This document shows positions 1,334 to 38,083 of a stretch of DNA of 64,000 bases, piece after piece (within the stretch, counting starts at the first letter, position 1; every line of letters starts with the position of its first letter). Source of the DNA: Psococerastis gibbosa. Taxonomy: Eukaryota; Arthropoda; Insecta; Psocodea; Psocidae. The position numbers and the translations under genes were made by a program. The DNA is taken from contig OZ020486.1 of NCBI GenBank assembly GCA_963971405.1, forward strand, positions 36,169,419 through 36,233,418, in the 5' to 3' direction. The notes under the pieces were generated by a model. That model made no database searches, was not told where the DNA came from, and saw nothing but the letters and a program-made list of their open reading frames with translations.

Positions 1334-4300
1334 AATCATCACAGAAAGTTTTTATGAAAAGGGCGACCTTGAAAGCTGGTTGGCTCCCGATGTCTACCGA
1401 GAAGACTATAGAGAACTAATCGATGCACTTTGGGACTCCCTTCTTCAGCAGAGATTGTCGTAAGTATGGGATAACGAATATAACAATAAGTGTATTTTTT
1501 ATTTTTCATTCGTTACTGTACGGTGTACATGAAAAGTCTACAATATTACATTTTAGGCGAATTTAACGTATTTAACCACGAGAAAATGTACTTGCTTACT
1601 ACTCCTTACTCAATCCAACGCCCGTCCATCCATGACTTCTCAGCCATTTGCTGATCCCAATGCATCAGTGACTCGAAGTATTGGTTATTATGATTTCGTG
1701 TAAGCCAGAGCAGTGGTAAGAGTGACAATGAAAAATTTCAATTTTTCAAGAGTAATTCACCGTAAATGAATTCAGTCAGAGCATTGTCATAGAGCAGAAA
1801 CTGGTGCGTCATTAGCAATTTCGCTTAAAGTATAGAATTGGTACTAATTTTAGTATTTTTGACGAAAAGACACCAAAGCTATCTTACAAATCTGACATTA
1901 AAATTAGCATGAAAACACAGAATGTAGGACTAAATGGACCTCTGTAAGAAAATGCTCGCGGCAAGCAAATCAAAAGAACCGGTCCGAGTTTACTCGAACA
2001 AGCTTTCCAATTTATCAAGTAGTAGCTAGAGAAAATGAGTAATTTCATGGTAAATAATTTTCCTATAATTAAATTTCCGATATCTCGGGGAGGGGAGGGG
2101 GGGGGGGGGTTGTCCACCTGACAAATAATGAGAAATAATTGAGAAATAATTTTTTTTGACGTTTTTTTGGAGTTTTTTGAAAATAAACCCCCCAAATTGA
2201 GTTAGCCCAAAATAAAAATAAAAATAGTCTCGAGGTATGATTTTTTTGAACCTATATGCAAAATTTCATCAAAATCGACTGATTAGTTTGCCCGGAAATC
2301 GACGAACAGACAGACAGACAGAGCGACAGACAGACAGACACTTTTTTGGGTTCCTGGGACCTGAAAACGTGTAAATTCGTTGAAATCTCGGAATCGAAAA
2401 TTTCGACCATCACAAAGCTTTTCTTATACTACGTATAAATTGGAAAGCAACAATGGTTGTTGACATCATTACGTCGATGGCTACATATGGCAGGCATTTT
2501 GATTTCTCTACAACAGAGACATTTGTACACGTAGTGTTTAATGATTTCAGTTATGTGGTGAAAAATGCTGAAAATGAAACAATTGCCGTCAGCCTAAGCA
2601 TGGATGGAAATGCTGAGCCTGAAGTCACAATAACAAGTAAACTCCTTACCATCTTTGAATTTCTGGATTATATTGAAGTTCCAATCAGGTAAAAATTAAG
2701 AGTGTTTAAGTTGATTAAACAATATTATGGTTTGCTCCAGCGGGCAGTGGCGCATTTATCGTGTATATGTGGTATAGAAGCAAACCGAGCCAAGTCCACA
2801 AATTTCTGAAATTTCTGAGTTTTCAGCACCGATGGATTCGTCTTCATGAAATCTATTCAATGAATTTATTATCAGATGCTAATTCGGGCAGCGTAAAACT
2901 AGTTGAAATATTGGGGTTAGAGGCATTTACAGAGGAATTACTTACAGAAAAATTAACTGCAGTGGACTTTGCCGAATTTGCTTTTATACCACTCAATATA
3001 TATAAGCAATATTTTCGTGAGGGGGCCAAGATCAGATTGCATGAGAGGTCACGAGACGACGTTGAATTCTACCAACCAAACCGCTCACTATTGAGCCAAG
3101 CATCTACTACATCTGGAAAATACTGCATTACAACAATTGACTAGTTAATTTCGTCTTACATTCCTCCATATTGGGGGGAGGGGGGCCTGGATTCTAGTCC
3201 TACTAATCTTATTGGCAGATGGTTGCAAAACGAGGAATCAAATGAAAGCAATGCAAAGGTAGGAACGCAGAACACGTAACATGGTTCATTTTTTTTTGGT
3301 TCTTGTGTAGGGCCTATACTAATACAGCAATTTTCTTGCTGCTGACATTAGCACCAGGAGTGCTTCTTTACAATAATTTTAATGTAAAATGCATAGGTAT
3401 AATATGCACCTATATATTAAGGCCCGGTACACACATATGATGTTGCCAGGAGCATAGTCAGATGTTTAAAATATGTAAATTATCATGAATAGGTAGATAC
3501 TAGTACCTAATCACTTAACTTTGATTGCTTGAGTGGATACAATTTTTCATTTTATTGTAGGGAAACCTCTTTGCCCAAGGGAACAAACCAAGTGATGCAT
3601 GGGTTTATGATGGGAACGGGATCGAAGGTCAAGGCGCAGCAAAATATTGAGCTCATGCTGTTTATGGAGCACGAAAACCTCAAACTGGCACGGCAAAGGG
3701 GTTTTGCAGGAATTTTTACAACAAACACAAGCCCCCTTACTCAGGTAGGCTAAATCATAAAATAGGAGGCTGGTTTCAACATGTACCAACTTACAATAAA
3801 TAGGACGTGTCATAACTTAGAGTGCTTATAAATTTAATCATAATGATGTACTGGATACGTCATAGCCAATAAAATATTGTATATTTAATTAAAGAAAAAT
3901 GCAAATACTTGATGGAAAATGGGAATTCAGGCTGGTGTGCACAATTTTCCCGTGCCTTCACCTGATTACGACCATGAAAGCCTTTGTAAATATAGCATGA
4001 CGTAAGTAAATAGTTAGGTACGACGAGTTGTTTGTAACAATCTACAGTACATATTTTCTATTGACTACAGTCTGTGGGACTAAAGTCCTCTGGGTTGGCT
4101 TGTATTGTAAAGCCCCCAGCAGCCTGATCTTGGCGATTATAATACCGGTATTTATTTAAACCCCTGGTATTAAAAATGTAAACAAGATAATTTTATAATG
4201 GAAAGTGCTTTTCAAAATTTGTTTGCATACATTTTTAATATGCATGATGAATGAATGAATGAACTGAGCTTGAAGGCGGTGTAATTCAAAAATCACTTAC

Positions 4301-5336
4301 TCCCATGCACAGCCCTTTTGTGAAATTCTCAAATTTCTCAATAGAACGCACCATACCATACGATAAACAAGGCGAAACATGTAAACATATTTCTCAATAG
4401 TAAAAAAATTAGAAGGTATGTTTGCACAGTGTTTACATACATACATTACATACATACATTCTCATTCAGGTTCGAACAATATTTGACTAAAGTCTGAGTT
4501 ATATTGTACTACAATAACTAGAACTCCCTTCGTTGTCATGCCAAATGAAGAAATCTATGCTAAATTTGCTGCTACAAAATAGAGTTTACTATAAGTCACC
4601 ATTATTTTTATTGTATGTTTGGCATTATTTTGGCACTGGTAAATTTGACTGCAAATGTTTCACAGCCGCAGTCAGGCACGTGGCTTTGGGGCTGAAGCCG
4701 CCCCCCCCCCCCCCGAAATGTAAAAAAAAAAAGAAAAAATTCTTGCATTGTTCTGTTTGATGTTTCACTTGTGTTTTTTTCCCCCCCTCTAAAAACACTA
4801 AAACTGTGTTTTTGCATGTAAATTCTTAAACATTTCCGGGGGGGCGGACCCGCCGTTTTCCTGGGGGTATTCCATACCCCCTCGACCCCCTGGTAGTTAG
4901 CCCCTCCCGAAATAAAATCCTGGCTACGTGCTTGGCCGCAGTCATATGATGAAGCTATGAAATCCGGGCTGATGGGCTGTGGTAGATCCGTAATATATTT
5001 CCAAACGTTTCGTCAGTATTTGCGGTCCACACCTTCAGTTCGGAAATACCTACCCTTTCAGATCACAGCCTATTAGCCCGAATTTTAATCCGTCAACATT
5101 TCAAATTGGTAAATGGTAGGTACTGTAGGTACGTGACCATATATAGATCAGTGGTACCGTACCGTGTTGCATTAAATTTGTTGGTCTTGTTATTTCAGCA
5201 ACTAGGCACAGATGTTTACGATTACGAGGTACTCAACGACTTCCAGATCAATAAATTCACGGCTTCGGATGGTTCCAAGCCATTTGGCCGCGCACCTAAT
5301 AAAGACAGAGCTCAAGTATCATGGAAAGCACTGTAG
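1334..5336 (+). CDS. ebony: Ebony-1: beta-alanyl amine synthase, last four coding exons (5' part outside window)
   Basis: Exons are 1334-1459, 2551-2688, 3561-3744 and 5199-5336, each bounded by AG and GT, with phases 2, 2 and 0 and a TAG stop at 5334. They encode the C-terminal amine-selecting, GNAT-like domain of Ebony, which transfers carrier-bound beta-alanine to an amine such as dopamine or histamine in the cytosol. Recognisable pieces are KGDLESWL, NEPEV-like NAEPEVTI, FEFLDYIEVPIR, LPKGTNQVMHGFMMGTG, FTTNTSPLTQ and INKFTASDGSKPFG. All are close to my memory of Drosophila Ebony, much closer than the downstream copy. The adenylation and carrier exons must lie left of position 1. Introns carry a HINE, a poly-C MITE and an unexplained ORF. 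It probably is the conserved orthologue. Confidence 0.9.
1972..2449 (-). mobile_element. HINE-like (Helentron-associated) repeat, copy 1
   Basis: This is one of three copies in the window that share both ends. Read on the minus strand it starts with GCTTTCCAATTTATACG, holds a (CTGT)n-type microsatellite, and ends with an inverted copy ATAAATTGGAAAGC-like sequence, then a small hairpin (CGAG-TAAA-CTCG type) and GGTTCTTTT. Asymmetric inverted repeats plus a terminal hairpin and insertion between T residues is the Helentron/HINE pattern. No protein is encoded. It lies in an ebony-1 intron, 102 bp before an exon. Confidence 0.6.
2761..3144 (+). other. Unexplained 127-codon ORF inside an ebony-1 intron
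   Basis: An open frame fills much of the intron between exons 2551-2688 and 3561-3744. Its composition looks protein-like, with charged and hydrophobic residues alternating (for example LVEILGLEAFTEELLTEKL) and no low-complexity tract. I see no known domain and no splice sites that would join it to ebony. It may be a fragment of a transposon protein or chance. Confidence 0.2.
4673..4934. mobile_element. Poly-C hAT MITE, copy 1
   Basis: The element is flanked by an exact 8-bp duplication GCCGCAGT (4665-4672 and 4935-4942). Its ends are CAGGCACGTGGC and, reversed, CAAGCACGTAGCC. Inside are C and G homopolymer runs and AAAATCCTGGCTACGTGC. An 8-bp target duplication and C-A-start termini indicate the hAT superfamily, and the lack of coding makes it non-autonomous. 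It lies in the last intron of ebony-1. Confidence 0.8.
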
Positions 5337-8330: not shown

Positions 8331-11300
8331 ATGTTTCCAATGTCAAAAAGCCACAAGCTTTCAATTTTTCATGGCAAAAGGTGGCCTCTATATAAACCTG
8401 GCGAACCCCTTACATTTGACAGAATTTTTGAGCACACTGTGAAGTCTATGCAAAGCCTGAATAACGGTGAAGAAGTTTCACCAATACATGACGTAAGTAG
8501 ACAAGGCCGTAGCCAAGGGGGTTCAAGCCCCCCCCCCCCCCCCCCCAATGAAATGGCTTGACACTAGATAGAATCGGATTTTGAGAGGAAAAATAAAAAC
8601 TACTACCGGTATGCAATATTCAATTAAATTTATAATCCCCCCCCCCCCGAAAAAAGTCCTGGCCTTGTAAGTAGAGTATAGACTACCCAATACGAACTGC
8701 TTGTACCAGTAAATACTTATTCTATGCTTTGCTTTGTACTGAATACTGACAATGGTACGGCTGTGCGTCGATTGGCCAATATAAGTTTATATTATGAACC
8801 TATTGAATTTACTATACCGGTGCATTTAATATATAATAATATAATAACAATGACTGCGGTTATCGATAATTTGTATTCATCATTTCCTTGGTGTAACTTC
8901 ATCATTAACATTTGCATGTACAGATAAGTTATGACACTGTAATCCAGCGTTTACGTTATCTTTTATAATAGCCTATTTTTCATGCATCTAACATAAAACA
9001 TGCAGACGCAATATGCTATAACCTGCTGTATTTCATAGGCTGTTTTTAACATTACTACCCCATACAGGGGCGAAGGTAAATGAAGCAAGTTATTAATCGA
9101 AATTATACGTAGACTATAGACTAAAACGTAATATTATTTTCTTAGTTATGCACATTTATATAGTGAACTGGGATTTTCGAAATACCGTACCGTCCTTAAA
9201 ATACATCTTACGCAGGTAAAATTGCTTTATAATAGTATAAGCTAAGAGGTGTCGTTACAGAAGAAATAACCTGAACTCTTATTATTCTTCCGCTTCTAAT
9301 CTAGGGCGTCTTGGTATGTGAGTGCACCTTGATCGACATCTGCCTGGATCATTCTCGGCAGCGTCATCATCGGTCTTCTCCTGTTTCCTAGGACCACATT
9401 CTCCTCAACCTTTTTCAGTAGATGAGTCTCCCCTCACCTTTAGACATGTCCAACCCATAATAGGCGTTTTTCCCTTGAGAGAGACTTCGACAGTTTCAAA
9501 CTCAACTCCCTCAACCCACCTGCTATTGTTATGACTATTAGGATGGATGTAGTCTATGCCTCTGTTGTTGGGTCTTTCAGATTAAACTTCAACCTGGAAA
9601 CCCTGTTGTGTACTACAAAGACCGAATAATCCCAGTAGCTCAACTGAATAATGAAGCCAACCAGTTGGCCCGAGCTATTCTCGACAAATACCCCAGCATC
9701 CACTGCAATAGGGACGGTGACACTCTAATTATTCTGGAAATGCCGCGCTGCCCTGAACTGGTGGCGGCCATGTTTGCGGTGTGGAAGTTAAAAGCAGCTA
9801 TTGTCATTGTCGACGAGTCATTTCCAGATCAACGAGTGCAACATATATTAAATGACTCCCAACCAGCTCTAATTATCAGCAATTACAGTGCGTATATAAA
9901 TACAATGATTATGCATAAATCAGACACCCCCAACTATACGCGTTTTTTTTTCAAAGTCGAATTTCTCGTGACATATCGACCAATAAGAGTAGAAGAAGTA
10001 ATCCTCTACATGTTTATACATACTGTTCGCCCAGAAAAGTTTGCAAATGCACAAAAGAATTTCCCGTAATGCCTTGGCAAGTCCCGCCTCTCCATGTAAA
10101 TTTCCTATGCTGCATTTTCAAATCAGATAGAACTACTTTGCATGTGTTTGTATAAACAAAACTTATGGGGGTTCCATTCCAAATTAAATACATTAATGTC
10201 ACAAGTGGACATTGATTATTTATTTAGCTGAAATTGTCGATCTGTTGCACTTTTTACGAATTTAAGACTCCAATGTCAAAATTAAAATTAATTTTTTCGG
10301 AATGTTAGTTAATTGTCTTCAACTACTGTAGCAACGTTAGTGGAACGGTTTTATGGTCATCATAGAACAAAATCAAAGCAATATTTATTGTTATAAATAT
10401 TATTAGTGCGTTTCTTGAATTTGAGAAATTTATAAACTTTTCTACTTACTGTACTGTATTATAAAATGGATCAACTTGAAAGTAGACAATTAACGTAAGA
10501 GCGTTCAGGCCACAGGAAGAGTTTCATACCAATAAGGGTCTCATCAAGGTATACAATGCGCTTTCCTTCAGACCTGGCCTTCCGGATTCGTTGTAAATAC
10601 CTATAACGCCAAGAACGGGTGCGTGGCGACTCGACCAAGACGTTATTTTTTCTTAAACTTCTTAAATCTGCAAAGCATTCAAATTGTGACTGCTTTGTTT
10701 CTAACGCACTTCTGATGCGTGTATACATATATAATAGGCTAGTCTCTTTAGTAACTTCAAGATGTGTTGTTGGTTTGGTTGTGTTTTTTTTTTATCTTAT
10801 TGCGTAATAATAATAATAACATAACAAAGAAAAACATATTCACAATGAGTTCTGATGCGAGTACTAATTGATTACATTGATTTCTTTATATTATGGAAAA
10901 GTCTTTAATAGAAATATTGTATCTATCAGACCAAAATATTAATATTAGCAAATTGAAATTCATTTCTCTTGGAACTACTTTTCGTGTTTGATAACTACAG
11001 AGTACAGATTGTAAATTTACCTGAAGTGAAGACGTCTAGTGATAAATACGCGGAGGCTCTCCTTGGGCATTTGGTAATGATCATGAAGCTCTAATATTGG
11101 TTTTCGTAGGGTGTCTAAGCTTAACAGTCAGCAATCATTCTAGGATGAAAATACATAATTATGTCGTTCCTCATCATACTTTCATCACATTCGTCGAGAT
11201 CGCGTAGTAGGCTATTCTTGACGTCTTTTTTCCTTTACATTTTTGTTGATTTTATACCTCGACGGACTCCTTGACTTATATCAGAATTGAAACATATCTG

Positions 11301-14300
11301 ACAATAAATCACTGATATAACTTTAAACTTCACCCCTCTTCCATAAATAGTTCGCAAAGTTTATAAAAGCATCATTCGGGCTTGCTAGTGAATTTGCTTG
11401 CCTTACCAAACGGTTTATGCGGAAATGATGCTTCAGTCTCATTGCTTTGGCTATTCATCTTCCTCTTGCTAGGCCTGCTTCCTTTGGGAAGACTTGCCAC
11501 TCATTTCTGTGGTCCGAATGCTCTTCACGTATAGTGTACAGTATAGTAAGAACTTTTTATTTAAATTTCTCAAATTCAAGAAACGCACTAATAAGATTAA
11601 TAATAACTATAAATATTGCTTTGATTTTGTTGGATGATAACCCTGAAACCATTCCAATAACGGTGCTACAGTAGTTGAAGACAATTAACTAACATTCAGA
11701 AAATTTTAATTTTAATTTTGACATTGTATTCGTTAATTCGTAGAAAGTGCAACAGATCGACAATTTTAGCTAAATAAATATGTCCACTTGTGACTTTAAT
11801 GTATTTAATTTGGAATGGAACCCCCATAAGTTTTGTGTATACAAACACATGCAAAGTAGTTCTATCTGATTTGAAAATGCAGCATAGGAAATTTACAAGG
11901 GGAGGCGAGACTTGGGAAGACATTACGGGATATTCTAATGTGCATTTGCAAACTTTTCTGGGCGAACAGTAGTATGTAACCGGAGCTAACACCGTGGGCC
12001 AATTTTTGAACGGTGAAAAAAATGTCAAGATTCGCGCCTTCAAAAACTTCGCCCAAAAGCTCCGACTACATACTATATTACTATGTATCAAAGTGTCAAG
12101 GAGTATTTATACTACTTCTTCTACTCTCATTTATAGCTCTAATAATATAGGTATAATCATTATTTAATTTTTCACAAAAACGCATGGTGGGGTTGTCCGA
12201 TTTTCTCTTATCAGCCGATCTCCACCGCTCCCCAAAAGTTTCATTGTCCACTAATGTCATAAGTTCTACCTGTTGCACAAAAGTACAATGTTTTATCATA
12301 GAAGATAAGCTACTGACGAAACAGACTACAACTGTACAAAGTCAGGTGGCTATTAATCATATTAATCATTAAATGAGTCGTTTACACGCTGATACCGCAC
12401 CTCGGACTATGGGAATACGACCAGCCCCTCCTTGCATATTGGTCCGAATTCCTCCATATACTTACTTATGCAACCATGTTAGCACCCAAAAGACTCGTAA
12501 CTGTCATAAGTCATGCTTTCGCATGTTTCATTGGTAAGTTTTTCCCAGCTTGTCCATTGTCACTTGTAGCCGGCATAGGTTGAAATCGATAAGATATACC
12601 AGTTTGCCAATGGTCAAAAATGCATACGGAAACAATACAAATAATGTCCAAAATCCGTGAGGTTTTGGCAGTGGACTAAGACCCTGCATAGGTCTATAAA
12701 ATATTTCCTTCAAAACAGTTTTAAAATTATTTTTTAGGTAGGTATCAGTAGGAGCATGGCCGCGCCCAGGGGTGTGGTCCATGGGGTCCACCCCCCCCCC
12801 CAAATAAAGTTTTTTATTTAAACCTGTATGGTTTGATGAATTTATCCATTAATTCATGAATAAATTGCGTTTAAAATTTTTTGGACCCCCCCCCCCCCCC
12901 GAAATCAAAATCTGGGCACGGCCTTGTGTAGGAGGGGACCCTTTAGGACGAGCCTTTGCTGGGCCCCCTTTCACTATACTGTATATACTTAAGTATTTTT
13001 AACCATGACTCCAGATTCGAGATTCCAGATATAATTAGTGAAAAGTCGTAGTCTAGAATATAGGTCGGCAACCCATGGCTCGCGAGCCACATTTGGCGAT
13101 TTGGGCACTTGGCAATGGCGCTTTGGCAATGCTGTAATATTTTACCATTTTAAAAATAAGAAAGGAAAAAAATGATTAAAATAGTACCTACTAAAAAAAT
13201 AAAAAATATAATTTGCTATAAAATTTTTAAAAATGGCGCCAAAATATTTTCATCAATTTACTCTGAATTGAGCAATAATGAGTGGCTTGAAAAATTTTAC
13301 TTTATGGTTGATCTGACTGACCATCTCAATAAGCTTAATATTAAAATGCAAGGTGCAGGAAACAGTATCGCATTTCTATTTGAAGAGATCACTGCTTTTG
13401 AACAGAAATTAACGATTTTCGCATAGGATTTAGGAAAGAAAACATTTGTACACTTTTCAAGTCTAAAGTCATATTTAATAGAGAAAAAAAATTTGGACGT
13501 TGGTACAAAATATTTTATTGAGACAAGTGAATCTATGAAGAACGCATTTTTGAAAAGATTCAAGCAGTTCAGGCAAATTAAGAATACATTTTATTTTGTG
13601 ATACGCCGCCTTGACGCTGCCACTGAGGATCTCAACTTCGCCCCCCCCCCTTCAATATTGACGTTAGCTCATTTGAAATGCAACTTGCTGAATTGAAACA
13701 TAAGGAAATTTGGAGGGCCAAATGCGAAACTTTGGAAAAGGATTTGGAAAAATTAGAAAAAGAAAAATGTGAGCTGAGAACTGCCCATCAATGGACGGCT
13801 TTACGAAATCTCCAAAAGGAAGACGAGATTATTTTTAAAGCATGGTCAAGTCTTCCAGACTTGTATGGACAGCTGAAGAAATATGCTTTTGGCATACTTT
13901 GAATGTTCGGTTCCACAAATTTGCGCGAACAGTCATTTTCACAAATGAATATAATTAAAAACAAGATTAGGAGCAAGCTGAGCAATGCCCATTTGGAAGC
14001 TTCCATGTCCCTCAAATTGTCCACGTACAACCCAGATATTTCGGCGTTGTCAAATGAGATGCAGAGTCAAGTATCCCATTAGAGTGATTTTTTAAAAAAA
14101 GTATAGAAATATGTCTTTTTTGTATCAGCTTACCTGTTGTAACTATTGTATTAAAGGTAGATAGATAAAGCTCAAACTGTGGTAGCTAAAAAACCTTCCA
14201 ATTCGCAAGTTCATTCTGAAAATGTTTCTAAGGTAAGCCCCCCCCCCCCACTCGGAGTTTTAGATCCGTTGGCGCTTTGGAAAATACTCAGTTCAAAAAA

Positions 14301-17300
14301 TCGAGAATTTGGCTCACTTGCACCAAAAGGTTGCCGACCCCTGGTCTAGAACACCAATGACTGTGCGTGCACCACAGATAATAGATTTTCGTTACAATAG
14401 TTTCGTTTTCCGAACGCACCTAACGAGCTATGTGAAGGAAAAATTGAGTACCGTGTAGGAAAGCATGCGCCATAGAAGAAAAGAAGTGTGCATATCCATA
14501 AAATTGCAGAAACTCACAGTGGTACAGTTCTATAATACGTACGACTATGTAGGACAGCTGGCCACGTCTTTTTCAATAGCTGGTCATAGGAGACGTCACA
14601 GGCTGCACTAAAAATTTAAAAATATGTACATTTTGGAGAGGAAGCAAATGACCCATCTCTCCAAAGCAGAACTCTATATACCATTATGACAATAATTACA
14701 CATTTCGAAACGTACGATATGCCTCTTTGCAGTAACCAAAGACCGCTATCCGGGAACGCATCCTACTGTGTCATATACCGACCTCAAATCTAACGCTGTT
14801 CAAATGTCCGTAGAAAATTTGCCCCCAGAAACAATTTGGGGTGGAAATGTTCCAGAATTTGATAGAGTAATGGCTGTGGTGTACACGTCAGGAAGTTCTG
14901 GAACTCCTAAAGGTAAGCAATGATGTTTTAATTATTAATTATTTTGCCCCGGCAAGGTTCGAGTCCTATCGGATTGAGCTTTTTATTAATACCTTATTTC
15001 AGACCTTATGGCAAACACAGGCTGAACCTCTCTTTCAATTCCTGGTCATACCGTAAGTTGACTTCCAGCAGTGTTTATAGACAAATAGCAAAGCATGCAT
15101 GAACCTTCATTATATATCTACCACTTTCGCATAGAAAATGATTGCGGCCAATCAAACACCAATGCATGTCACCAGCCAAAAAAAAAGAAATAAACAGGGA
15201 TGTCGCTTGAACTCGCAATGGCAGCAAGATATAGCTTATGGATTTTTACACAAAAGAAGTCCATTACATGCATGAATGAATAAATGTTGCTATGTGTAGA
15301 CACTGTACTCAGTATGTGTATTCACTGTGTTGGTATAATAGGGAAAATGGGAAATAGAGAAATAGCTCAGCATGAGGGTACCTCCACCAACTACAGAAAT
15401 AGAAACTAACTTACCTCCTAAGTAGGCTATCTTTGCCTTTGGCTATTAACTTATGAGCATCTGCTGAAGTCCACCTCTTGGCACATGTTAATTTCATTTT
15501 CTTCTTGTTTTTTTTATTAATTTCAGTCGCAGAGCTCATTTTTGAAATTAAATAAAAATAAAAAGCAAAATTTAAAATCCTACCGACAACAAATATTCCC
15601 ACTTTATCCAACTCCTAGGAGTTGAATGTTGTGAAACACGTTTCCTTATGGCATCACTTTTCTAATCGAAAAACTGGAGCTCTATTTTTCCATTTTCCCT
15701 CAGTTTCCTACTTTCCCTTAGGGTAAACCCAACACAGTGAATAACCCTAATCGTCGATTTAAATGTATTTAAGGAGTGAGAGTTCTTCATCGCAACATCT
15801 TGACAAGAATCAAGTGGGAATTCGTTAATTTTCCGTATTCAGAGGATGAGCAAGTTGGGCTATTCAAGCAAAATCCAACTTTCCTAGATTGGGGTCCTGA
15901 GTTGTTGTGTCCCTTGATATCAGGAAAGTCACTCGTAATTCTGACGCCATTACAAGTTGCTGATGTAAATGAGTTTATCAATATTTGTGAAAAATTCAAG
16001 GTAGGTACCGATAGCCTACCGTTACGATACGTATAGGAGCACCATCATGGACGAATCCACAGCGGGGGGGGGGGGGGGGGTAAATGTAGTAAATCTAAAT
16101 AATTTATTAGACTCTAATTTAATCGATATCGATAATACATTTTTAATATTTAATTCCAGCAATAAGACAATTAGAGACAATTTATGTACCCCAGGCCACT
16201 AGCCCGTGTGCGGCTTAACGTTGGATACCTATCTATATAATTATGGGCCTAGACGACCAGGAGCAGAGTTGTTTTGTTTTAAACAGTTTGTTTAAAACAA
16301 GCTGTTTTAAACTAGTTTTACACAAAATGAAAAAAAAACAGATTGTTTAAAACAGACTGTTTTAAACTAGTTTTAAACTCGAATAAAAAACAGACGTGTT
16401 TAATTGAAATGAATGTTATAGTTAGATAAAGTTATATTCTTTGCGTCCAAAATCCAAGTGCTACTGCACTCAAAATGCGTAAAACCCCACTATTTCAGGC
16501 ATGTTTTTCAAAAAATTTCAACCGGGGGCCCGGCTATTTTCATCGCCAGTGAAATCTAAACGTTCCTACTATCAAAATGCGTACAATCCCACTATTACAA
16601 GCCGCATTTTATAGAAATTTCACCCGGAGGAGACCCCCGGGCCCCAGAGACGGACGCAGCGACCGGCACTGTGGGCAATTGCCCCCTCCCCTCGGGAAAG
16701 CAGTTATTTCTTTACGTCTGAAATCTAAGTGTTACTGCACTGAAAATGAATAAAACCCAACTATTTCAGGCATATTTTTAAAAAAATTTCACCCGGGGGA
16801 GACCCCCGGACTTCACTCGTTCGCAATTGTATTAATTGCCTGTAAAATCTCGAAGTTAATGCTATCAAAATGCGTAAAATCAAACTATTTCAGGTCTGTT
16901 TTCTCCCCCCCCCCCCCTTCAGGTCTCCCGAACCCTCTGGCTCCTACACAAAGGACACTAAGGCCATTAATTTAAACTGTATGTATGAGAACGGTTCATT
17001 GGTCATGGCTTCATGGACACGGCAAAATCAAACCACATGAGAATTTTTCTCTGAATAATCCAAATTATAGCTACATTCAGAAGCCCGTATTCTCTAACAT
17101 GATGCTTTACAGGGGCTATGAAATCCTGTCCCACTGCGGCAATGGAGATAGTACTGGACTTCCCACCCCTCCATGTTGCAGTGGAAACTGCAACCAAAAT
17201 GGCATTATTAGGAGTGGAAGGGCAATTGAGAGACTCAGCCTCTCTGACTACGTCTGACCACTGTCTGGATATGCCAGGCGATAGAATCCATTCTAAATAC

Positions 17301-20300
17301 TGTTTTAGGAGGGAATTCGAAACTATATTAGGGACAATGAAAGAATGCTGCGAATCAGTAGGAATTCTCAATAGTCACACAATCAAGTGGTTTACTGATG
17401 GCTCTAGGCTAGGAAGTACAAAACCAAGAACAGACCTTGGCGTCTTTGGTCCTGGGGTTAAATATCTGGAGTCTCTTGGGGAGACAACTATAGTCTTGCA
17501 GATTCTGCAATGAAGGTGCGGAGGACCTGATGCGATGCGATGCGATGCAATCGCACGAAGAAGAGCAGCATGCTCGGGAAGCTTGCAGTTACATGTAAAA
17601 GACCTACCACTTCTGAATCCCCTCAAGATCCTGGCTCTCCTGAGGGAGATAGGCCTCTCGAGAAAGTGATGTAGATACTTTGTTGCAGGGGGCACAACAG
17701 GCCAATAGGCTTAAGTGTACACAGGTAACACCTGTACCCCAATTAATACAATAAAAAAAAATGAGAACGGTTCTCCCCCCTTCGAAAACCTATCGTTACG
17801 CCACTGAGCATTGCTATTATAATCTTTCGTGAACTTGTCAGGACATTTTTATTTTTTGTTTTAATGAGAAGGGGTGAAGGGCGAGGCTACTGGAAGACTT
17901 ACAGATTTACTGGGTTTAAAAAAAAAAAAAAAATTATTAGTGGCTTAGCCCCCCCCCCCAGACTTTTTGAGATTTTCCGCCAATGTATAAGGGGAGGGGG
18001 TATAAAAAACTGGACCAGAAAACCCCCTGGCAACATCCAGAATCATAATCTGCAAACTTTTCTGAGTTGAAAACTATTTTCAGAATGCGGTCTGATATTT
18101 TGCATACTCAACTACCTATAGCGTCTGCACTATCTGCATTGTACAAGCCACGAGGCTGCCTCGTGGCTCGAACCTTACACTCTCTATATTTATTTTATTA
18201 TTATGTAATTATTTTTATGCCTGTTCACTCTTGAACAGAGGATGCCAGATTGTCAGGTCGAGCGAGTTCCAAAACTGCCAATTGGGGGTTATTGACTACA
18301 ATATACGTTATGCTATATATCAAAATGAAGAGGAACATTTCTTCATTACATTGCACTTAATGCAGAAAATGTTCAATGAGCTACTCCGATTGGCCCTTAA
18401 AAATTAAATGTACTTGCGCTTGCATATACTGTAGGCTGTGGCTGACGTGAAATTAACGCAAAATCACTTTATCAATGCTGCTGTCGCAAAATTAAAAAAA
18501 AAAACAGTTCAAAACTAGTTTTAAACAGAGTTTTAAACTAGTTTTAAACAGTAGATTCATTTTGTGTCTGTTTAATTGTTTTAAACAAAGAAAACAGTTT
18601 AAAACAATGAAAAACAGTTGTTTTGTTCAAAATTAAAAAAAAACTGGTTTTTTCCAACCCTGACCAGGAGTCGGCACAATCTGAGGACACTGCACTGCTG
18701 ACTCAAGGCGTCAGCAGCACAGCTGCAGGTGCATGAGAACGAGAGCAGTCAGTCGAGTCTTATACAGGTCTAGTCAGACCATCATACGCGCTTTTTAAAA
18801 ATATTGATTTCGCGCGGTTGAACTTAAGTATATATTCAAATACTATTTTAATTATACTATAAACTAAATACTTATATGCTATAAGCTAAATGTTTATGTT
18901 TATAATTAACTACAATAAAATAAAACGAATGGTTCAATATGAAGTCGTCATTTGCTTTCTCTGTTTGTTTTGCCCCACAACTACCCCTCCCCAAATGGGC
19001 TGGAACCGTCCCAGCACCCCTGCACCTAGTCTAGATATTAGGTCGGTTATCTTTTTTTATAAAGGTTAATCGCATACAAACAAGTTGATGAATGCATCCG
19101 ATCGACCTCATCATTCAGTCGCCTCTGTATAAGTTAGTAGGTACTTGTGTTGAGTTACGGCACGTCTCTGATCACATGGCGTGTAGAGTACAACCTCGCT
19201 ACCACCTGGACACCGAAGTCGATTTATTAAAATACTCGTATATTATTTAAGCCCCACATACATAAGCTGCGATTTCATATGGGTTATTAGTAGACTATAG
19301 TCTGTATTATTGTAAAATTCGAATAATTATTAAGTCAAGCTACCAAGAAGGTACCGTCGAAAGAGCTAATTTTAATTTACATAAACATATACTTTGGTTT
19401 AAGTAATAGACAGTGACTATAGTGTAGCTGGCAAACTTGAGCCCTAATCAAATGCAGGCCGAAATTCTGATACAAACTTATAGGACAAGTCTACCTGATT
19501 TTATTTTATTTTTATTACAGTTTGAAAGGATTATGATGGTGCCGACATACATGCAATCTCTTTTACACTGCCTTGAAAGGTCAACAAAGTTACATTCGAC
19601 AGATCAAGTAAGACACGAAATTTTATTGTTCTCATACGATATTTTATCCTCAAAGATTTTAAGAGGGTGCTGGCCGTAAACATTGGCCACCCCTGGAACA
19701 ACCCAAATTAGGTTGGTTTATAGTTTTTGCTTGAGTTATTAATATTTAAAGTTACAAAGATTTGGTCCACTCAATTGCTAGAGGACTATTTTATACACCC
19801 TGTTATAAGGTGTTTTTTACTTTTGTTGGTATAATTTTTTCATGAATTCGATAATTGACCAAAACTAAATAACTCGTCGTAGTACTATGCATGGAATAGT
19901 CCTCTATCAATTGAGACGATCAAACCTTCATAACGTATTAACTTTAAAAAAAATATACACAAACCAACCTGTACAGCCAGCATCCTCTTAATAGGCGAAG
20001 CTTGAGGCCCAATCGGAGCCGTCCCCTCTGGGGGGAATTTTTACGGTAATATATATGCCTCATAAGACTTAGTGTTGTGTTTAGTGCACTTCTCTGTCAA
20101 CCATGGGTTAGATCCAGAATTTGAAAAATCAGACATGAATAAATTACTCTCATAATTTTTAAATTATTCCAGGTGAAAATAAGGCGCATGCCAGATCTCA
20201 AAATATGTTTTTCAACATCAGAAACTTTACACGTCTGCCTTGCCCGAAAGTTTTACGAATATTTCCCAGAAGACGAAGTGACACTGTTCAATTTTTTTGG

Positions 20301-23300
20301 AGCAACTGAAATGACCAGTGACGTGCTCATGTACAAAGTGGAAGGCGTCAAGCTGCTAGATTCCAGCATTCCCATTGGTGGTATGCTTATAAGTTATAAC
20401 CCTGGGACATTGAAGTTGGACCACCTTGCATTTCAGCAGTGATAATTTTTTTTAATGTTATTTTTCATAATTCTCATCACATAAGAAAAAACTACATGTA
20501 TATGGGTAGATAGAGGCGTCATTAATCGAAATAAATAATGAACTATGTGCCTATACAATTTTTAAAATGACGGTTGAAGAGAACACTTAGAGGATAATGC
20601 CTAAGTTGGACAGATTACTTTTTATAAGTTTTATAAGTCTTATAGGAGTAAATTGGTTTGAACAGCTTACGATTTCTTTGTACACTTGTACCGTGGATCA
20701 ATTGCGGGGCAATCTATGCAAGCATTTGCCAGTTCTAATAAACCCCAAGTCTGGAGAATTTGCGCTTTTAATCATTGTTCTTACAGGGCAAGTATTTGAT
20801 AACACAATAGTATACCTCCTTGACGACAACCTGCGGCCTGTTCTTGACGGAGAAATGGGGGAACTGTGTGCATCTGGATTGAACATTTCAGGTGGCTATG
20901 TGGGGAAAAAGCGCGATCAACTCAAATTCATGGACAATCCGTTCTCCACAGATCCCGGTAACTATAAGGGGTGCTCTCATACCAGTGGTAAAATGGGAAA
21001 AGGAAAACACAAGTCAAAAATAATAAATATATAAACATAAAATACAATGGGAAATTTGTATACAGTAGGCTACCATTATTTCAAATTTTTTATATCGATG
21101 TATATTTTCTTTTTCACTTTGCCACAGGTGGGTGAGTACCTTAGGCTACGTTATGCTCCACGTTAGCGTTTAGATGGCTATTCCACTTGTCAATAATCCG
21201 TCATTTATGTTTCAATAATTTTGATGAGATTTTTTTACTCTATATAAAAACATCTCAATTATTGAAGCACAAATGACGAATTATTGACAAGTGGAATAGC
21301 CGCCATATGCAAGAATGAATTTAGGCATTTGCAGTATCTGTTGTGTTGAATAATGCCGCTTTAAAATGGAGCTTAGCGATCATGGAACGTGCATAAAAAA
21401 TTTGGGTGTTGAATCAATTAAAGACCAAAACAGCACAATTTTTAGTCTTAGGATAAAGTAAATTGAGTAGGATAGGTGCACAAAGAAAATAACTCACATT
21501 ACCGTAACTTGTCACTTGATGGCTAAATTCCGCATCTAGGCTTTCCTCAGAAAACAGTTCTTAAAGCCCTGAGAAGAAAATACAAAATAATTGTTTTCCT
21601 AGTTGTTGCATTCCTCAACATCACCTATTCCCCTAGTAGATATACGCATAGCATTTTACTAATAGGGGTATCGTATTCACTGCATTTCAATTTCCCTAAG
21701 GGAAAGTAGGAATAGAACTCCAGTTTTTATACGGTAGAATAATAATAAAATGTAATTCAAAACATCCCAACTACTTGGTTGGGTAAACTGAGCTTGGGAA
21801 ATCGAAAACGCCAAACGGCCATAGGCCTATTTGCTGTTGTTTTGCATTTGAATTTTGGTTTTTATTTTTATTTAATTTTTAAAAAAATGAGCTCTGCGAC
21901 AGAAATTAATTAAAAAAAAGAACCGGTCCGAGTTTACTCGAACATGCTTTCCAATTTATAAATTAGTAGATATAGACATGTGTAATTTCATAGGAAATAA
22001 TTTCCCTATGGTTAAATTTCAGACCCCTCGAGGGGGGGTCCACCTCAATTTATATTAAAAACCCCTTAAACCTGAATTGCATATTCTGGAACGAATAGAC
22101 CAATACATTGTAACAGCAGTAACAATGACACATGGCACGTAATGCATTGGAGCGGGAATTTTCCACAATTTCTCAAAAAAAAAAATTTTGCACAGAAGCA
22201 AATATTTTTTGGGAATGCAACCTGTCCGTTTTTGTTACCCTATTGAACACCTATAACATACCTGAAGGTAGAAATCATCGATAGAAAGGTTCCACAGAAA
22301 ATATATTTTTTAGTCATTTTTCATGAAAATTGAGTTATTTTTATTTTTTTACCCCCAAAAGCAAACTATCAAGCGGCAAGCGACCCCACACATTTTGTTA
22401 ATTTTGATAACGACTATAATATATGTGAATTTAAAAGAAATCGTTGGAGCCGTTTTTGAGAAATAAAATTTTTTAGAAGCTTTTTTTTGGAGTTTTTTGA
22501 GAATAAAAATTGAATTAGCCAAAAAATAAAAAAAAATTGTCTCGAGGTATGATTTTTGTGAACCTATATGCAAAATTTCATCAAAATCGACCGAGTAGTT
22601 TGCCCGGAAATCGATGAACATACAGACAGAGCGACAGACAGATTTTCGTAAAAACCACTTTTTTGGGTTCCTGGGACCTCAAAACGCGTAAATCCGTTGA
22701 AATCTCGGAATCGAAAATTTGGACCATCACAAAGCTTTCCTTATACTACGTATAAATTGGAAAGCAAAATCAATGGAAATATATGGCATAGCCTGAGCCT
22801 GAGCATATAGCCTACTATTGAAACTCATGGATACTAGTTGAAAATACATGTCTGCCATAGATCATTGCACGATTTACCGGACTGGAGACTACGCCAGGTA
22901 TGTGGGCGGGGCCGTTTATCACGAAGGGAGAAAGGATTCCTTGATCAAAATACGGGGACACCGTGTGGATATTTCGGAAGTAGACGCAGCTGTTGGAAAA
23001 GTGAAAGATGTTGATAAATTCTGCACGTTGTGTTACAAGGCTGGAGAACCTGAACAGGTACGGTGAGACATTTCTATCGGTTTTTGAATACATAAATAAA
23101 TATTTTTGTTTTGTTCCATTACTGCCAGCCAACCTAGCGGAGTTAGGGCTGTAAAGCCCTCTCTTATACACTCATCTAGGAAGGCCCGGGACAGCCTGCT
23201 TTAAATGCCCTCCGAAGCATGGCCAGAAAACCTTTTGGGCGAAAGTTGGAGTCTTGAATACATTTGAAGGCTCAGAATAATTATTATTGCTTTGACCCAA

Positions 23301-26300
23301 CCAAACCGATTAATGAGTATAGAAAATCATTTATCAGGACAAGTAAAGTGGTGGCACAGACTCCGACTTTCACCCGAAAGGTTGTTGTTATCGAGCCCCA
23401 CACTTCCCACATTTTCTGGCCATGCCTCGGAGAGAATGTTAAGCAGGCGGTCCCGGGGCCTTCCTAGTTGAGTGTATGAGAGGGCTTTATAGCCCTAACT
23501 CCACTGTTTGACGTAGTAGTAGTAGAAAAGTCAATATTTATTATTTATTTACTATCATGACATCATTTATTCATATTATAAGAGCAACTCTGTCCATCCT
23601 TCAGACAATCGAATATTGGAGGGAAATTCCACAACCCTTGGAATCGAATAAACGTGACTTAATCCATGATTATTAATTTAATATTAATACTTTCAGAGTC
23701 TCCTGGCATTCGTTACAACGAAACAGACATCAGTCGACGCTCAAGTTATCGAAGAGGAACTGGGGGAAGCGCTGCCATCTTATATGGTGCCTTCAGTCAT
23801 AATTGTGACAGATATTCCTGTATTAGTCAGCAACAAAGTAGACAGACAAAAACTTTTGAAACAACACCACGAAAATCGTATAAAAGGTACAAACTAAGAC
23901 TAGCTTTGAAATCGATTGGGAAAGCTTCATGGCAATAGTGTAATATTATTTAACAAAGTGCTAGTTGGACTGTGTTAATAGTCATTAAACCCAGGTCCCT
24001 AACAGTCATCGGTCAATTTCAATCGGGAGAACGATAGTTCGAGTCCTAAAGGTGATCGCATTTACTCAATCATTCAGTCCTCAAGACTAAGCCTGATGAT
24101 GGAAGTAGCACCCACTCCCGAAACGTCGCCCCCTCCCCTGACAATGGGTTCCACCCTAATTTTCCCATGACTGAAACCCCTGCCTCTCATGACTATTAAT
24201 GCAACAGGCAGTGTAAGTCGTACTTAACCTTTTTTAAATAGCTTTGAAATGGGCTATTGTAATACATCACATTTTGTTTTCTTGTTTTTTCCTAGAAGCT
24301 GACACTAAGAAGGATTTTGACTTTAGCGGGATACCGTCCGAGAATCATGAGAAAGCAAAAGCATTGTTCGAGACGTTGGTGACATGTCTAGGGGACAACT
24401 TAAAGGGGAATCTCAATGGCACAACAAACTTCTTCAAAATTGGTGGAAGCTCTCTCAATACCATCTTGACAGTCTCCAAACTGAGTGACATTGGATACAT
24501 TATCCGTAAGCACATAATTCAATCATTTTTTTTTGCATAGCTAAAATAGGTCCGTATTGTTATAATGATAAATTATGCATTGAAACTGTAACTGAAACTG
24601 AATTGAGACTTCCCGTTGATAAGGATCCACAACTGGCCGAATGGAACGAAAGAAACCTAACTAAGCGGAGGGTTATTGCTGTGATTTTTTTCAGCCATCG
24701 AAGACTTCATCAATGCAAGAAACCTATCGGAAATAATTTCCGCCATGCGAAAATTCAATGTTACGGAAGCCTTCAGTCTGTTTGACTTGGCGGAAATGCA
24801 CAATAGGACCGGTTATAACTATGAACCCGTAAAAGAAGAGCACAAAGGAGTCATTATTAAGTAGGTTCATTTTTTAAGACATTTTACTTTTAGAAATCAA
24901 GGACTACCATTGGATTCACACTGTAGACACTGTACAATCAGTTCAGTTCAGTTCTAAATGCATTGCGCTATTCATACAGTATATTGATTTAATGCTATGT
25001 TACAACTTAATACAAAATAATAATTGAGAATATTAACTAGAACTTTCACCGAGCGTTTTCTTTGTTTTTGTAAGGAAAGTTATTAATTAATTAATTAATT
25101 AAATCATAAAGCACATTAATAGAGCATGAGTACATGTGTCTGTGGTTCTAAAGTTTAAATAGCGCACTTTGGTGCACGCAGGTTCTTATAATCCGTACAT
25201 AACCGTCACATTAGCGTAATAATATAGGAAGGGATGAAAATAATAATTCAGAATAAGAAAATGAAATACTTTTAACTAAAACACGGTCAAAATGGTCTGA
25301 CAAAAGAAATACAACCTGGGGAGATCAAATAGTATTTTTAGCCAGCCTGCTGCTAATGAATACGAAATTCCAGAGCTTGGGGTAGCTTTAATCTTTCTAT
25401 GAATTTTCTAGGTTTGGAGCAAAGATTATGTCAAGTAAACTAGGCCAGGTTATTAATTTGGAATTAAGCACTTCACTCGTATTATCAAAAAAAAAAATTA
25501 AAAAATACATATCCAATCTAAATCATTTTTCTCCTTTCAGAATTATCAGTCAGGCATTCTCAAAAAAATCTGATCTAGAGAAGTACTTTCCAGAAGAAGA
25601 GGTTATTGTCGATGACTACGTCAACATTATCAACCTTTGGTGGGCCGTAATGCTAGAAGACAATATTTCGTAAGAGTATTACAATTACATATTTAAATAA
25701 TCCTAAGTTGTGCCACAATCTTTTCTTAATTAAATATGTAATGCAGTGGCCCCCTGAGAACAATCGCAGAATTTTATAGCGCCAGTGTGAAATTTATTAA
25801 CCAACAAAGGAAATTACCATGACAACAACTACAAATAGTTAAGAGCACCTAGATGAGCACGAAGAAGAGGTCTAAAGAATAAATAAATAAATTAAACACG
25901 ACATGAGTAAGCGAGGCGTGTGTTCCAAGGACAGCATAGATATCCCATATGCGCAGTTTGGTGCATTTTAGGCACAAAACAGCCCGGTGGCCTAAACTGA
26001 ATAAGGAAACCCAACAATAGCTTGGCGGTGGTTCAATTCAACCGTTTATGTTTAAGGAAAATGTAGTGGACGATGCTACGGCATGACAATGACCGTGGGT
26101 TCGAATCCCAACAAGTCCAGATTTTTTTAGATCCTCATTTCATGATTTTAGTTATAAACAGGTTGCCTCTTCAACCTTAGCATAGTGTCAGTATTATATA
26201 TCAGTATAGTATATCCCACAATAATATTATATTATATTATATGTATACAATATATTATATTGTATATAATGTAGTGGAGTACTACCATATTAATAATTGT

Positions 26301-27802
26301 CAGCCTGAACTGCTCACCAACAATATTATACTGCAGTTTTATTTCTTATATATTTTGTGTCTTCTCACAGAGTATTTATATAAATAAATAAATCTCGACT
26401 ATTTGGTCTATTACTAAGCCAACCTAGCGGAGTTATGACTATAAAGCCCTTTCTTAAAACTCAACTAGGAAAGCCCGGGACCGTCTGCTTTACATGCCCT
26501 CCGAACCATGGCCAGAAAATGTAGCAAGTGTGGTACTCGAACCAGCAAACTTTCGGATGAAAGTCGGATTCCGTATTTACATATTGTTTATAATTACTTA
26601 TTTAACCCGTAGATTTGTAACGAAAAATTCCAAAAATGAAATAGTCGCTGCTACAATCAATGTCGATTTTTTCAATTGCCCGTCTTACGAGCACGTGGTA
26701 AGGGGAAGAGCCAGTCTCATAATCCATGAGTTTCTATCCTATTTGGAAGAGCCATTCAGGTGTGTTTTTCAATTGAAGAATCTCAGATTCTCAGTAATAT
26801 GTTATAGCCCGGTGACCCGCCAAAAGATAGCACATCATCGAATGGCAATCAAAAAGTAGGCATTTAATCAATTATTTTGTGTGCAGTTTTCACTTGGTAA
26901 CGCCATTTTAGGCGAATCTAATTAATGCAACGGCATATAAAATATTTAAACTCTTTTATCTATCATTAATGAAAGGTATCAAATTGTCTTTTTTATTTAT
27001 TATCAGTTGCAGCGACTTATTTCAAAATGCTGAAAAAATTTTCTACTGTTTTATGGGAGCAACGACAGCAGACCTGAGCCCAATGGAGAACATCGAAGTT
27101 TTCATTCACATTGAAGAAACTATAGTCAAATTGGCCCAAGAGCGAGGGTACAAAGCAATTTTCGCTGTCAATGTCAGCCCAATAACACAGGTTGGTCTGA
27201 GCAATTTTGTATTTGTACAGGTGGGCTTAAGAGTATACATCCCGTAGGGAATTGGAATTTATTTTATATTTAATTAACTAAGAAAGTTATTAAAGATTTT
27301 GCTCATTTGTACGCATCACATAATAAGGTATTTTTAATTTTCGAAAATGTAGTTTTTTCATAAACATGATTATAATTTATAAACCATAACTTTTCACGTA
27401 TAATAGATACTACGAAGAAACTACAATTTCGAAACTTAAAAATACCTTATTATATTAAGCATGAAGTAGTCTTCAACCACTTAAATGGGCCAAATCTTTA
27501 TTAACTTGCTTAGTTAATTAAATAAAAAGTATTAAATTTCGGGCTGCCTATTCCCTACGGGCTGTACACTCTTAAATTTATTTTCATTTTTCTATTATTA
27601 CTAGAAAGATTCTCAGTTAGGTACACAGTTATGATGGAACTTCTTGTTCTAGCAACTAGCAGTGGATGTCTTTGGGCACACCATTCTTCGCGACTACCAG
27701 GTAAACAAATTCGAAGCGTCTGATGGTTCTAGACCGTTTGAAGCTGCCCCCAACTCATCTAGAGCCGTCGTCACTTGGAAACAATTGCAACAATCAACAT
27801 AG
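8331..27802 (+). CDS. ebony: Ebony-2: complete divergent beta-alanyl amine synthase paralogue, 15 exons
   Basis: Exons: 8331-8492, 9581-9887, 14733-14912, 15774-16000, 19521-19607, 20173-20380, 20787-20957, 22861-23057, 23697-23886, 24296-24505, 24695-24860, 25541-25669, 26613-26759, 27007-27190, 27653-27802. All junctions keep frame, giving 904 residues, close to fly Ebony (about 880). Adenylation domain, about residues 60-580: A3 YTSGSSGTPKG, A4 region FLDWGPELL, A5 NFFGATE, A7 YRTGDYA, A8 KIRGHRVDISEVD, A10 NKVDRQKLL with its lysine. The carrier domain has GGSSLN, keeping the phosphopantetheine serine. The C-terminal amine-selecting domain ends NKFEASDGSRPFEAAP. Its last four exons match ebony-1 in phase, and the third-last pair in length (184 bp), but it is far more diverged. 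It probably activates beta-alanine or a similar amino acid; the accepted amine is unknown. Introns are packed with transposons. The ATG at 8331 is the first in the exon; the next Met is three codons on. Confidence 0.92.
8493..8672 (+). promoter_or_regulatory. Duplicated 5' splice donors of ebony-2 intron 1
   Basis: GTAAGT occurs at 8493, directly after the GAC codon ending exon 1, and again at 8667 because a MITE duplicated the site. Use of the first keeps the reading frame into exon 2 at 9581. Use of the second would include the MITE, whose frame reads a proline run and then stops. Confidence 0.7.
8502..8667. mobile_element. Poly-C hAT MITE, copy 2, at the ebony-2 exon 1 donor
   Basis: The ends are CAAGGCCGTAGCC and, reversed, CAAGGCCAGGAC, with poly-C runs between. 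An exact 8-bp duplication TAAGTAGA flanks it (8494-8501 and 8668-8675). The left duplication is part of the splice donor GTAAGT that starts at 8493. The final G of the element plus the right duplication recreates GTAAGT at 8667. Confidence 0.88.
10023..11969. mobile_element. Tc1/mariner-like element with about 450-bp inverted repeats
   Basis: The element lies in ebony-2 intron 2. Its termini CTGTTCGCCCAGAAAAG face each other and are flanked by TA at 10021-10022 and 11970-11971. The left arm (to about 10460) and right arm (from about 11530) are long inverted copies, seen as mirrored ORFs sharing YLIWNGTPISFVYTNTCKVV. The core keeps only a transposase fragment. Long arms and a TA target fit the Tc1/mariner superfamily. 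Confidence 0.75.
10471..10728 (-). pseudogene. DDE transposase fragment (Tc1/mariner-like)
   Basis: The minus strand encodes SWRYRYLQRIRKARSEGKR followed by IVYLDETLI. This resembles the segment around the first catalytic aspartate (YLDET) of Tc1/mariner-type DDE transposases. The frame ends soon after, so the rest is lost or too degraded to see. It sits inside the long-inverted-repeat element and is its likely transposase relic. Confidence 0.65.
12755..12926. mobile_element. Poly-C hAT MITE, copy 3
   Basis: The ends CATGGCCGCGCCCAGG and, reversed, CAAGGCCGTGCCCAGA enclose two C runs. The flanks AGTAGGAG (12747-12754) and TGTAGGAG (12927-12934) agree at seven of eight bases, as expected for an aged hAT duplication. 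It lies in ebony-2 intron 2. Confidence 0.75.
13059..14343 (+). mobile_element. hAT transposon relic (GTF2IRD2-like transposase)
   Basis: An exact 8-bp duplication GTCTAGAA flanks the element (13051-13058 and 14344-14351). The ends TATAGGTCGGCAAC and, reversed, CAGGGGTCGGCAAC are typical hAT termini. Inside are transposase pieces: FYFMVDLTDHLNKLNIKMQG near 13300, then a coiled-coil-like stretch and the C-terminal dimerisation region LREQSFSQMNIIKNKIRS near 13920. The frame is broken by stops and a C-run, so it is not functional. It lies in ebony-2 intron 2. Confidence 0.85.
15500..15735 (-). repeat. Dispersed repeat, shared with 21690-21915 in inverse orientation
   Basis: The stretch with CAGTCGCAGAGCTCATTTTT and the nearby CTACTTTCCCTTAGGG recur reversed at 21848-21915 and 21690-21712. 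The two copies lie in different ebony-2 introns. No ends or coding region are clear, so the family is unknown. Confidence 0.5.
16430..16925. repeat. Degenerate repeats with CCCGGGGGAGACCCCCGG hairpins
   Basis: Three or so diverged units repeat the theme AAAATGCGTAAAACCCCACT, then TTTCAGGC, then a T-run and a C/G palindrome around GGGAGACCCCCGG. The same unit occurs near 7380-7480 and 56680-57540. The spacing is irregular, so they are related repeats rather than a clean satellite. Confidence 0.55.
16998..17760 (+). mobile_element. 5'-truncated LINE with RNase H domain (I/R1-like)
   Basis: A 13-bp duplication ATGAGAACGGTTC flanks it (16985-16997 and 17761-17773) and it ends in an A-rich tail, the marks of LINE retrotransposition. 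The protein pieces include TAAMEIVLDFPPLHVAVE, KMALLGVEGQ and KWFTDGSRLG, the last being the RNase H start. It is nested inside the hAT element at 16264-18662. Confidence 0.8.
19663..19987. mobile_element. piggyBac-like MITE, TTAA-flanked, copy 1
   Basis: TTAA sits at both sides (19659-19662 and 19988-19991). The ends GAGGGTGCTGGC and, reversed, GAGGATGCTGGC match with one change, and further inverted similarity runs inward (CTAGAGGACTATT against AATAGTCCTCTA). There is no coding region. It begins 56 bp after ebony-2 exon 5. Confidence 0.75.
21176..21300. repeat. Palindromic MITE, GGCTATTCCAC type
   Basis: Two arms of about 55 bp starting GGCTATTCCACTTGTCAATA face each other around a short AT-rich loop. 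The terminal GGCTATTCCAC is shared with the MITE at 33096-33311, suggesting one family. It lies in ebony-2 intron 7. Confidence 0.7.
21916..22766 (-). mobile_element. HINE-like repeat, copy 2 (longest)
   Basis: It has the same ends as the copies at 1972 and 45832: the minus-strand start GCTTTCCAATTTATACG and end hairpin followed by GGTTCTTTT. Shared internal text includes TTTTTTGGGTTCCTGGGACC and GATTTCCGGGCAAACTA. It lies in ebony-2 intron 7, about 94 bp before exon 8, and is not coding. Confidence 0.6.
23127..23253 (-). mobile_element. tRNA-derived SINE, copy 1 (partial)
   Basis: On the minus strand it reads TTCTGGCCATGCTTCGGAGG, then the body ending CTCCGCTAGGTTGGCTGG. The tRNA-like head is mostly missing. 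It forms an inverted pair with the SINE at 23344-23505. Confidence 0.65.
23344..23505 (+). mobile_element. tRNA-derived SINE, copy 2
   Basis: The head GGCACAGACTCCGACTTTC leads to a B-box-like TATCGAGCCCC, then the body TTTCTGGCCATGCCTCGGAG and the tail AGGGCTTTATAGCCCTAACT. The match to the other copies is clear across the whole length. It lies in ebony-2 intron 8. Confidence 0.7.
26413..26575 (-). mobile_element. tRNA-derived SINE, copy 3, just upstream of ebony-2 exon 13
   Basis: The minus strand reads head GAATCCGACTTTCATCCGAA, B box GGTTCGAGTACC, body and tail GCTAGGTTGGCTTAG. It ends about 37 bp before the exon at 26613, so it lies where the branch point of intron 12 would be expected. 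Confidence 0.75.
27231..27571. mobile_element. piggyBac-like MITE, TTAA-flanked, copy 2
   Basis: TTAA flanks both ends (27227-27230 and 27572-27575). The arms GAGTATACATCCCGTAGGG and, reversed, GAGTGTACAGCCCGTAGGG match with two changes, and the inner parts are largely inverted copies. It fills most of the last ebony-2 intron. Confidence 0.78.
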
Positions 27803-37968: not shown

Positions 37969-38083
37969 ATAAATCGGGAAACCAAGATGTTCCGTAAAAT
38001 CAATTAAAAAGAAAAATTAAAAATAATAATTAAAATTGTCGCGTGTGCAAAGTGCTTGTGTAACCTAATCTTACCAGTACACC

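Follow-up and report, generated by a model that had tools for sequence, protein, structure and literature searches.

A tandem pair of Ebony-type genes in Psococerastis gibbosa, the second with a diverged predicted amino-acid pocket

RESULTS

Gene layout of the locus

The window analysed here, a stretch of DNA of 64 kb, is part of contig C3 of the 409-Mb genome of Psococerastis gibbosa. Two Ebony-type genes, ebony-1 and ebony-2, lie in it next to each other, head to tail and on the same strand, with 3003 bp between the stop codon of the former and the start codon of the latter, as calculated from the exon coordinates (Table 1). The ebony-2 gene is complete (8340-27802): its 15 exons give a CDS of 2703 bp including the stop codon and a protein of 900 residues, all 14 introns are of the GT-AG type and no in-frame stop occurs over the 900 codons. 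The first 11 exons of ebony-1 (897 residues) are located 5′ of the window and the last four at 1334-5336.

Exon models were obtained by spliced protein-to-DNA alignment guided by an intronless relative from the same genome (C12, see below), and reproduced the exon coordinates proposed for both genes in the initial annotation. With the C12 guide alone, exons 13 and 14 of ebony-1 were misplaced; they were recovered once ebony-2 joined the guide, and their boundaries are thus not independent of ebony-2. A guide-free comparison of open reading frames had matched the same open frames of this ebony-1 region with ebony-2.

Table 1. Exons of ebony-1 and ebony-2 located in the window
Gene	Exon	Content	Coordinates	Strand	Basis
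ebony-1	12	amine-selecting domain	1334..1459	+	spliced alignment
ebony-1	13		2551..2688	+	spliced alignment, ebony-2 in guide
ebony-1	14	184 bp	3561..3744	+	spliced alignment, ebony-2 in guide
ebony-1	15	stop codon	5199..5336	+	spliced alignment
ebony-2	1	start codon	8340..8492	+	spliced alignment
ebony-2	2	A domain	9581..9887	+	spliced alignment
ebony-2	3	A domain	14733..14912	+	spliced alignment
ebony-2	4	A domain; pocket positions 235, 236, 239 at 15884-15898	15774..16000	+	
ebony-2	5	A domain; pocket position 278	19521..19607	+	
ebony-2	6	A domain; pocket positions 299, 301, 322, 330, 331	20173..20377	+	
ebony-2	7	A domain	20787..20957	+	spliced alignment
ebony-2	8	A domain	22861..23057	+	spliced alignment
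ebony-2	9	A domain end; A10 lysine 23835-23837	23697..23886	+	
ebony-2	10	carrier domain; serine 24451-24453	24296..24505	+	
ebony-2	11	carrier domain end and amine-selecting domain start	24695..24860	+	
ebony-2	12	amine-selecting domain	25541..25669	+	spliced alignment
ebony-2	13	amine-selecting domain	26613..26759	+	spliced alignment
ebony-2	14	184 bp	27007..27190	+	spliced alignment
ebony-2	15	stop codon	27653..27802	+	spliced alignment

An apparent repeat within ebony-1

Two stretches of 9644 bp inside ebony-1, at -14731..-5089 and -4888..4755 in window coordinates, were found to be 99.99% identical and separated by exactly 200 N, the second reaching into the window. An internal duplication of about 9.6 kb covering ebony-1 exons 6-14 was considered and rejected in view of this identity and of the 200-N gap between the copies. 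The repeat is probably an assembly artefact, in which overlapping contig ends were left unmerged at a scaffold gap, and the window carries the copy from the second contig. In gene annotation, such an unmerged overlap would appear as a false duplication of exons 6-14.

Domain composition and membership of the Ebony family

At E 0.01, Pfam detected in ebony-2 an AMP-binding domain (175 bits) and a PP-binding domain (19.5 bits, just below the cut-off of 20.8), and no other domain at this threshold, a canonical condensation domain included. The eC domain was compared with the Drosophila Ebony eC structure 6DYM: ebony-1 scored 231 bits (E 1.6e-67), ebony-2 132 bits (E 3.4e-37, covering residues 73-283 of the 286 supplied) and C12 81 bits, with identities to Drosophila Ebony of 52%, 38% and 28% respectively. 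By its sequence, ebony-1 is assigned to the canonical Ebony type. We then examined the adenylation motifs, which, together with the carrier serine, had been described as kept in ebony-2. This holds for A3, A5-A10 and the serine (residue 625, in GGSSLN), whose patterns all matched, but the A2 region is altered and A10 is without its glycine, the lysine being retained. In ebony-1, the A8 pattern failed, with SR instead of GR.

Drosophila Ebony (6DYM and four further PDB entries) has the same single-module A-T-eC layout, and the eC domains of both ebony-1 and ebony-2 align with nearly all of 6DYM. P. gibbosa differs from it in having a tandem pair of genes and, in addition, two intronless relatives, in the eC domain of ebony-2, with the 38% identity given above, and in an ebony-2 amino-acid pocket unlike that of ebony-1, a comparison made within the genome. 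The other single-module animal NRPS-like enzyme, ACSF4-U26 or AASDH, also has an adenylation domain; its C-terminal part differs from the Ebony eC domain, while the C-terminus of ebony-2 matches the Ebony eC structure. This AASDH adenylation domain is described as beta-alanine-activating in the relevant passages of an animal NRPS survey, which also present Ebony as a single-module insect enzyme and flatworm NRPS as clustering with it (PMC10531068). The flatworm enzymes, Sm-NRPS of Schistosoma and planarian nrps, are likened to Ebony by description and use beta-alanine; they are reported to make beta-alanyl-tryptamine, a reproductive signal (PMC11214079), which shows the Ebony enzyme type to be able to switch partner and role. 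Ebony-2 is a further member of the known Ebony family, possibly with a new specificity.

Other family members in the genome

Two whole-genome protein searches, with 35 and 36 candidates scored, recovered the same four family loci: ebony-1, ebony-2, C12 and C14. No further Ebony-family locus was present among the scored candidates of either search. C12 (C12:27576429-27579194) is one intronless frame of 889 residues, counted from a chosen Met, with A-T-eC composition and 44% identity to ebony-1. Its alignment with ebony-2 extends over 896 columns with 39% identity and 642 bits, which excludes a chance likeness. C14 (C14:23268596-23270413, minus strand) is also intronless and consists of an A domain only (588 residues); about 4.5 kb on its 3′ side revealed no trace of a carrier or eC domain. 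The absence of introns suggests that C12 and C14 are old retrocopies.

Origin and age of the tandem pair

The initial annotation had noted that the last exons of the two genes share their order and that the last three introns have phases 2, 2, 0. This was borne out, and the agreement in fact extends to 14 of 14 intron phases (0,1,1,0,0,1,1,0,1,1,2,2,2,0), the ebony-1 model being partly guided by ebony-2. Five of the 15 exon pairs are equal in length, and in each of the remaining ten the difference is a multiple of 3. A pair of equal 184-bp exons, placed third from the end in the earlier description, has the correct length and is in fact the second-last. The two proteins share 46% of residues overall (A domain 50%, carrier region 39%, eC 39%). 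Estimates by eye of about a third for the amine-selecting exons and over half for the last exon came close to the measured values of 39.2% and 26 of 45 residues. Adjacency, common strand and the shared intron phases support the proposed tandem duplication, and the data are best read as a DNA-level duplication of an entire ebony gene together with its introns. The 14 introns of ebony-2 and its lack of a stop rule out a processed or broken copy.

We used as outgroup one Hymenobacter NRPS, the single confirmed case of 245 pattern matches in a bacterial genome scan. In the resulting A-domain tree, ebony-1 and ebony-2 grouped together with a FastTree support of 0.999. The AU test on this domain rejected nesting of C12 or C14 with ebony-1 (0.002 and 0.012 respectively); joining ebony-2 to the intronless pair was rejected by AU (0.018) but not by KH or SH, and an outermost ebony-2 was not rejected (AU 0.28). 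The eC tree conflicts with this placement: it favours a pairing of Drosophila with ebony-1 and of C12 with ebony-2 (support 0.889), the alternatives not being rejected (AU 0.06 and 0.29). Long branches may mislead the eC tree. For the Drosophila Ebony A domain we used a provisional sequence, and the results are given as a lead only: in the A-domain tree Drosophila branched outside the four copies, whereas with the domains joined it was placed next to ebony-1. Of six topologies examined with this provisional sequence, AU rejected one for the joined domains and none for the A domain. The lineage-specific duplication proposed in the initial annotation is a possible reading of these weak and conflicting trees. 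Among the open-licence papers listed by literature searches, none reported a duplication of ebony in an arthropod, which is weak evidence of absence, and the pertinent passages of PMC11736145 and PMC2763885 contain nothing on such a duplication.

Evolutionary rate and selection

With C12 as outgroup, unique changes numbered 142 in ebony-2 against 92 in ebony-1 (p 0.0013); with C14 they numbered 93 against 46 (p 8e-5), and 53 against 25 at positions where C12 and C14 agree (p 0.002). Thus ebony-2 evolves faster than ebony-1.

To examine selection, a codon model was fitted to a star tree with three branches, or with four where C14 was added for the A domain. The ebony-2 branch gave an omega of 0.018 over 883 codons with omega = 1 rejected (2dlnL 27.4), dS being saturated. 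By domain, the four-branch test of the A domain gave a 2dlnL of 26.5 against omega = 1 for ebony-2, and the weaker three-branch tests 10.1 (A) and 4.3 (eC). For C12, too, omega = 1 was rejected (2dlnL 13.8); for C14 the rejection was weak (2dlnL 5.6). Since branch estimates of dS reached up to 40, the ebony-2 omega is a rough value, ranging from 0.018 to 0.134 depending on the data set. Purifying selection on ebony-2 is supported within this one genome, with the qualification that synonymous sites are saturated. The intact frame of 900 codons, the motifs and the omega below 1 are in line with the earlier view of ebony-2 as an apparently working gene.

The amino-acid pocket

Pocket positions were assigned by GrsA numbering. 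The ten-position codes read VDAVVSYGDK for ebony-1, VDSIVSFGDK for C12, VDAIVSIGDK for C14 and LDPMFTFSDK for ebony-2, the four copies being aligned column by column over the nine positions preceding the lysine. At these nine positions, ebony-2 differs from ebony-1 in seven (V235L, A239P, V278M, V299F, S301T, Y322F and G330S), C12 in three and C14 in two. Identity to ebony-1 over the whole A domain is nevertheless alike in the three copies (50%, 47% and 50% for ebony-2, C12 and C14 respectively), so that the change in ebony-2 is marked where the amino acid binds. The Fisher test gave p 0.037 for this contrast, a post hoc value since the nine positions were picked after seeing the data.

Asp236, Asp331 and the A10 lysine are retained in ebony-2, and Asp236 is found in ebony-1 as well. 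The canonical beta-alanine code has Asp at 236. Where C12 aligns without gaps with LgrA, whose domains take alpha-amino acids, the Asp of the A4 motif is shifted by one position towards the C-terminus, and its column is common to all four copies; such a shift would fit a beta-amino acid substrate. A published beta-alanine code was found neither among the papers listed by the literature searches nor in the relevant passages of PMC12305651.

The pocket change in ebony-2 moves weight from a new amine, as proposed in the initial annotation, to a new or altered amino acid. The amine domain of ebony-2 is no further diverged than its counterpart in C12, and the standout change lies in the acyl pocket. 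From these sequence comparisons, a changed amino acid appears at least as likely as a changed amine; the eC domain of ebony-2 has also diverged, so a change of amine is possible too. The bulkier residues in the ebony-2 pocket could also do no more than weaken the A domain.

Proposed function of ebony-2 and alternatives

In insects, Ebony determines the colour and hardening of the cuticle and removes histamine and dopamine. By homology, the A domain of ebony-1 would activate beta-alanine as an adenylate and load it onto the carrier serine, and the C-terminal eC domain would pass the beta-alanine to dopamine or histamine. We favour, with a probability of about 0.6, the reading in which ebony-1 is the canonical enzyme and ebony-2 a tandem copy under selection, encoding an A-T-eC synthetase with changed acyl preference or activity. 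Its intact frame of 900 codons, its motifs and an omega of less than 1 would reflect selection keeping a working single-module A-T-eC synthetase, whose amino-acid pocket appears rebuilt around the retained Asp236. The most likely product would be a related beta-amino-acyl amine, made with altered acyl preference or activity and perhaps in other tissues.

A more far-reaching version, which we hold to be rather unlikely, is that ebony-2 no longer acts on beta-alanine but on a different beta- or omega-amino acid, from which it would make an as yet undescribed aminoacyl-amine, with the two intronless members beside it, one of them a stand-alone adenylating enzyme. At the opposite end, ebony-2 might perform the same chemistry on beta-alanine and biogenic amines and differ mainly in expression, a regulatory subfunctionalisation with relaxed constraint on the pocket. 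Retention of the searched motifs, of Asp236, Asp331 and the A10 lysine would agree with this, and beta-alanine is small and could still fit a tighter pocket; but seven changes in nine pocket positions, compared with three and two in about equally diverged intronless copies, make unaltered chemistry a doubtful account.

A new amine partner combined with the same amino acid, acquired through the diverged amine-selecting domain, was the version put forward at the outset. The 39% eC identity between ebony-1 and ebony-2, and the 38% identity of ebony-2 to the Drosophila eC compared with 52% for ebony-1, point in this direction, as does the coupling of beta-alanine to tryptamine by an Ebony-like flatworm NRPS, on the sections cited above (PMC11214079). 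This eC divergence is however in proportion, C12 also sharing 39% with ebony-1, and it is the A pocket that has changed sharply; we consider this version improbable. Less probable still is decay, in which a formerly functional ebony-2 is losing its adenylation activity. Its faster rate, altered A2 region and pocket, and weak carrier score would be expected of such a copy, but not the absence of stops and frameshifts in 900 codons at saturated divergence, the 14 intact introns or the omega below 1.

As far as sequence comparison allows us to judge, the gene duplication is real, though of a rather common kind, and its most interesting point is the apparently rebuilt ebony-2 pocket. If the favoured reading is right, ebony-2, as an additional copy under selection and with such a pocket, would constitute a natural experiment separating the roles of Ebony. 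It could also make a new aminoacyl-amine signal, comparable to the beta-alanyl-tryptamine of flatworms.

Repeats and other elements in the window

The last intron of ebony-2 contains a repeat of about 350 bp (27227-27575) that matches both strands, i.e. is palindromic and MITE-like, and has at least 82 genomic matches, a count that covers both strands and includes the repeat itself. Another repeat family is represented at 1908-2460 (ebony-1 intron 12), 21891-22807 (ebony-2 intron 7) and 45786-46654 (beyond the genes). No Rfam family was detected in the window at gathering thresholds.

A Copia-type gag-pol open frame of 1303 codons occupies 38069-41977, and two frames resembling hAT transposases by Pfam lie at 50708-53215 and 61811-63709. 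The frame at 54930-56084, presumably Penelope-like, has reverse transcriptase and GIY-YIG matches, both below Pfam cut-offs; a GIY-YIG fragment at 42576-42953 on the minus strand is above the cut-off. Among five contig ends sampled, two consisted of the TTAGG repeat throughout, two did not, and one read N at both ends of the sampled stretch; the TTAGG repeat is in keeping with an arthropod. Tandem repeats of about two copies each are located at 28167-28418 (123-bp unit) and 63708-63999 (155-bp unit).
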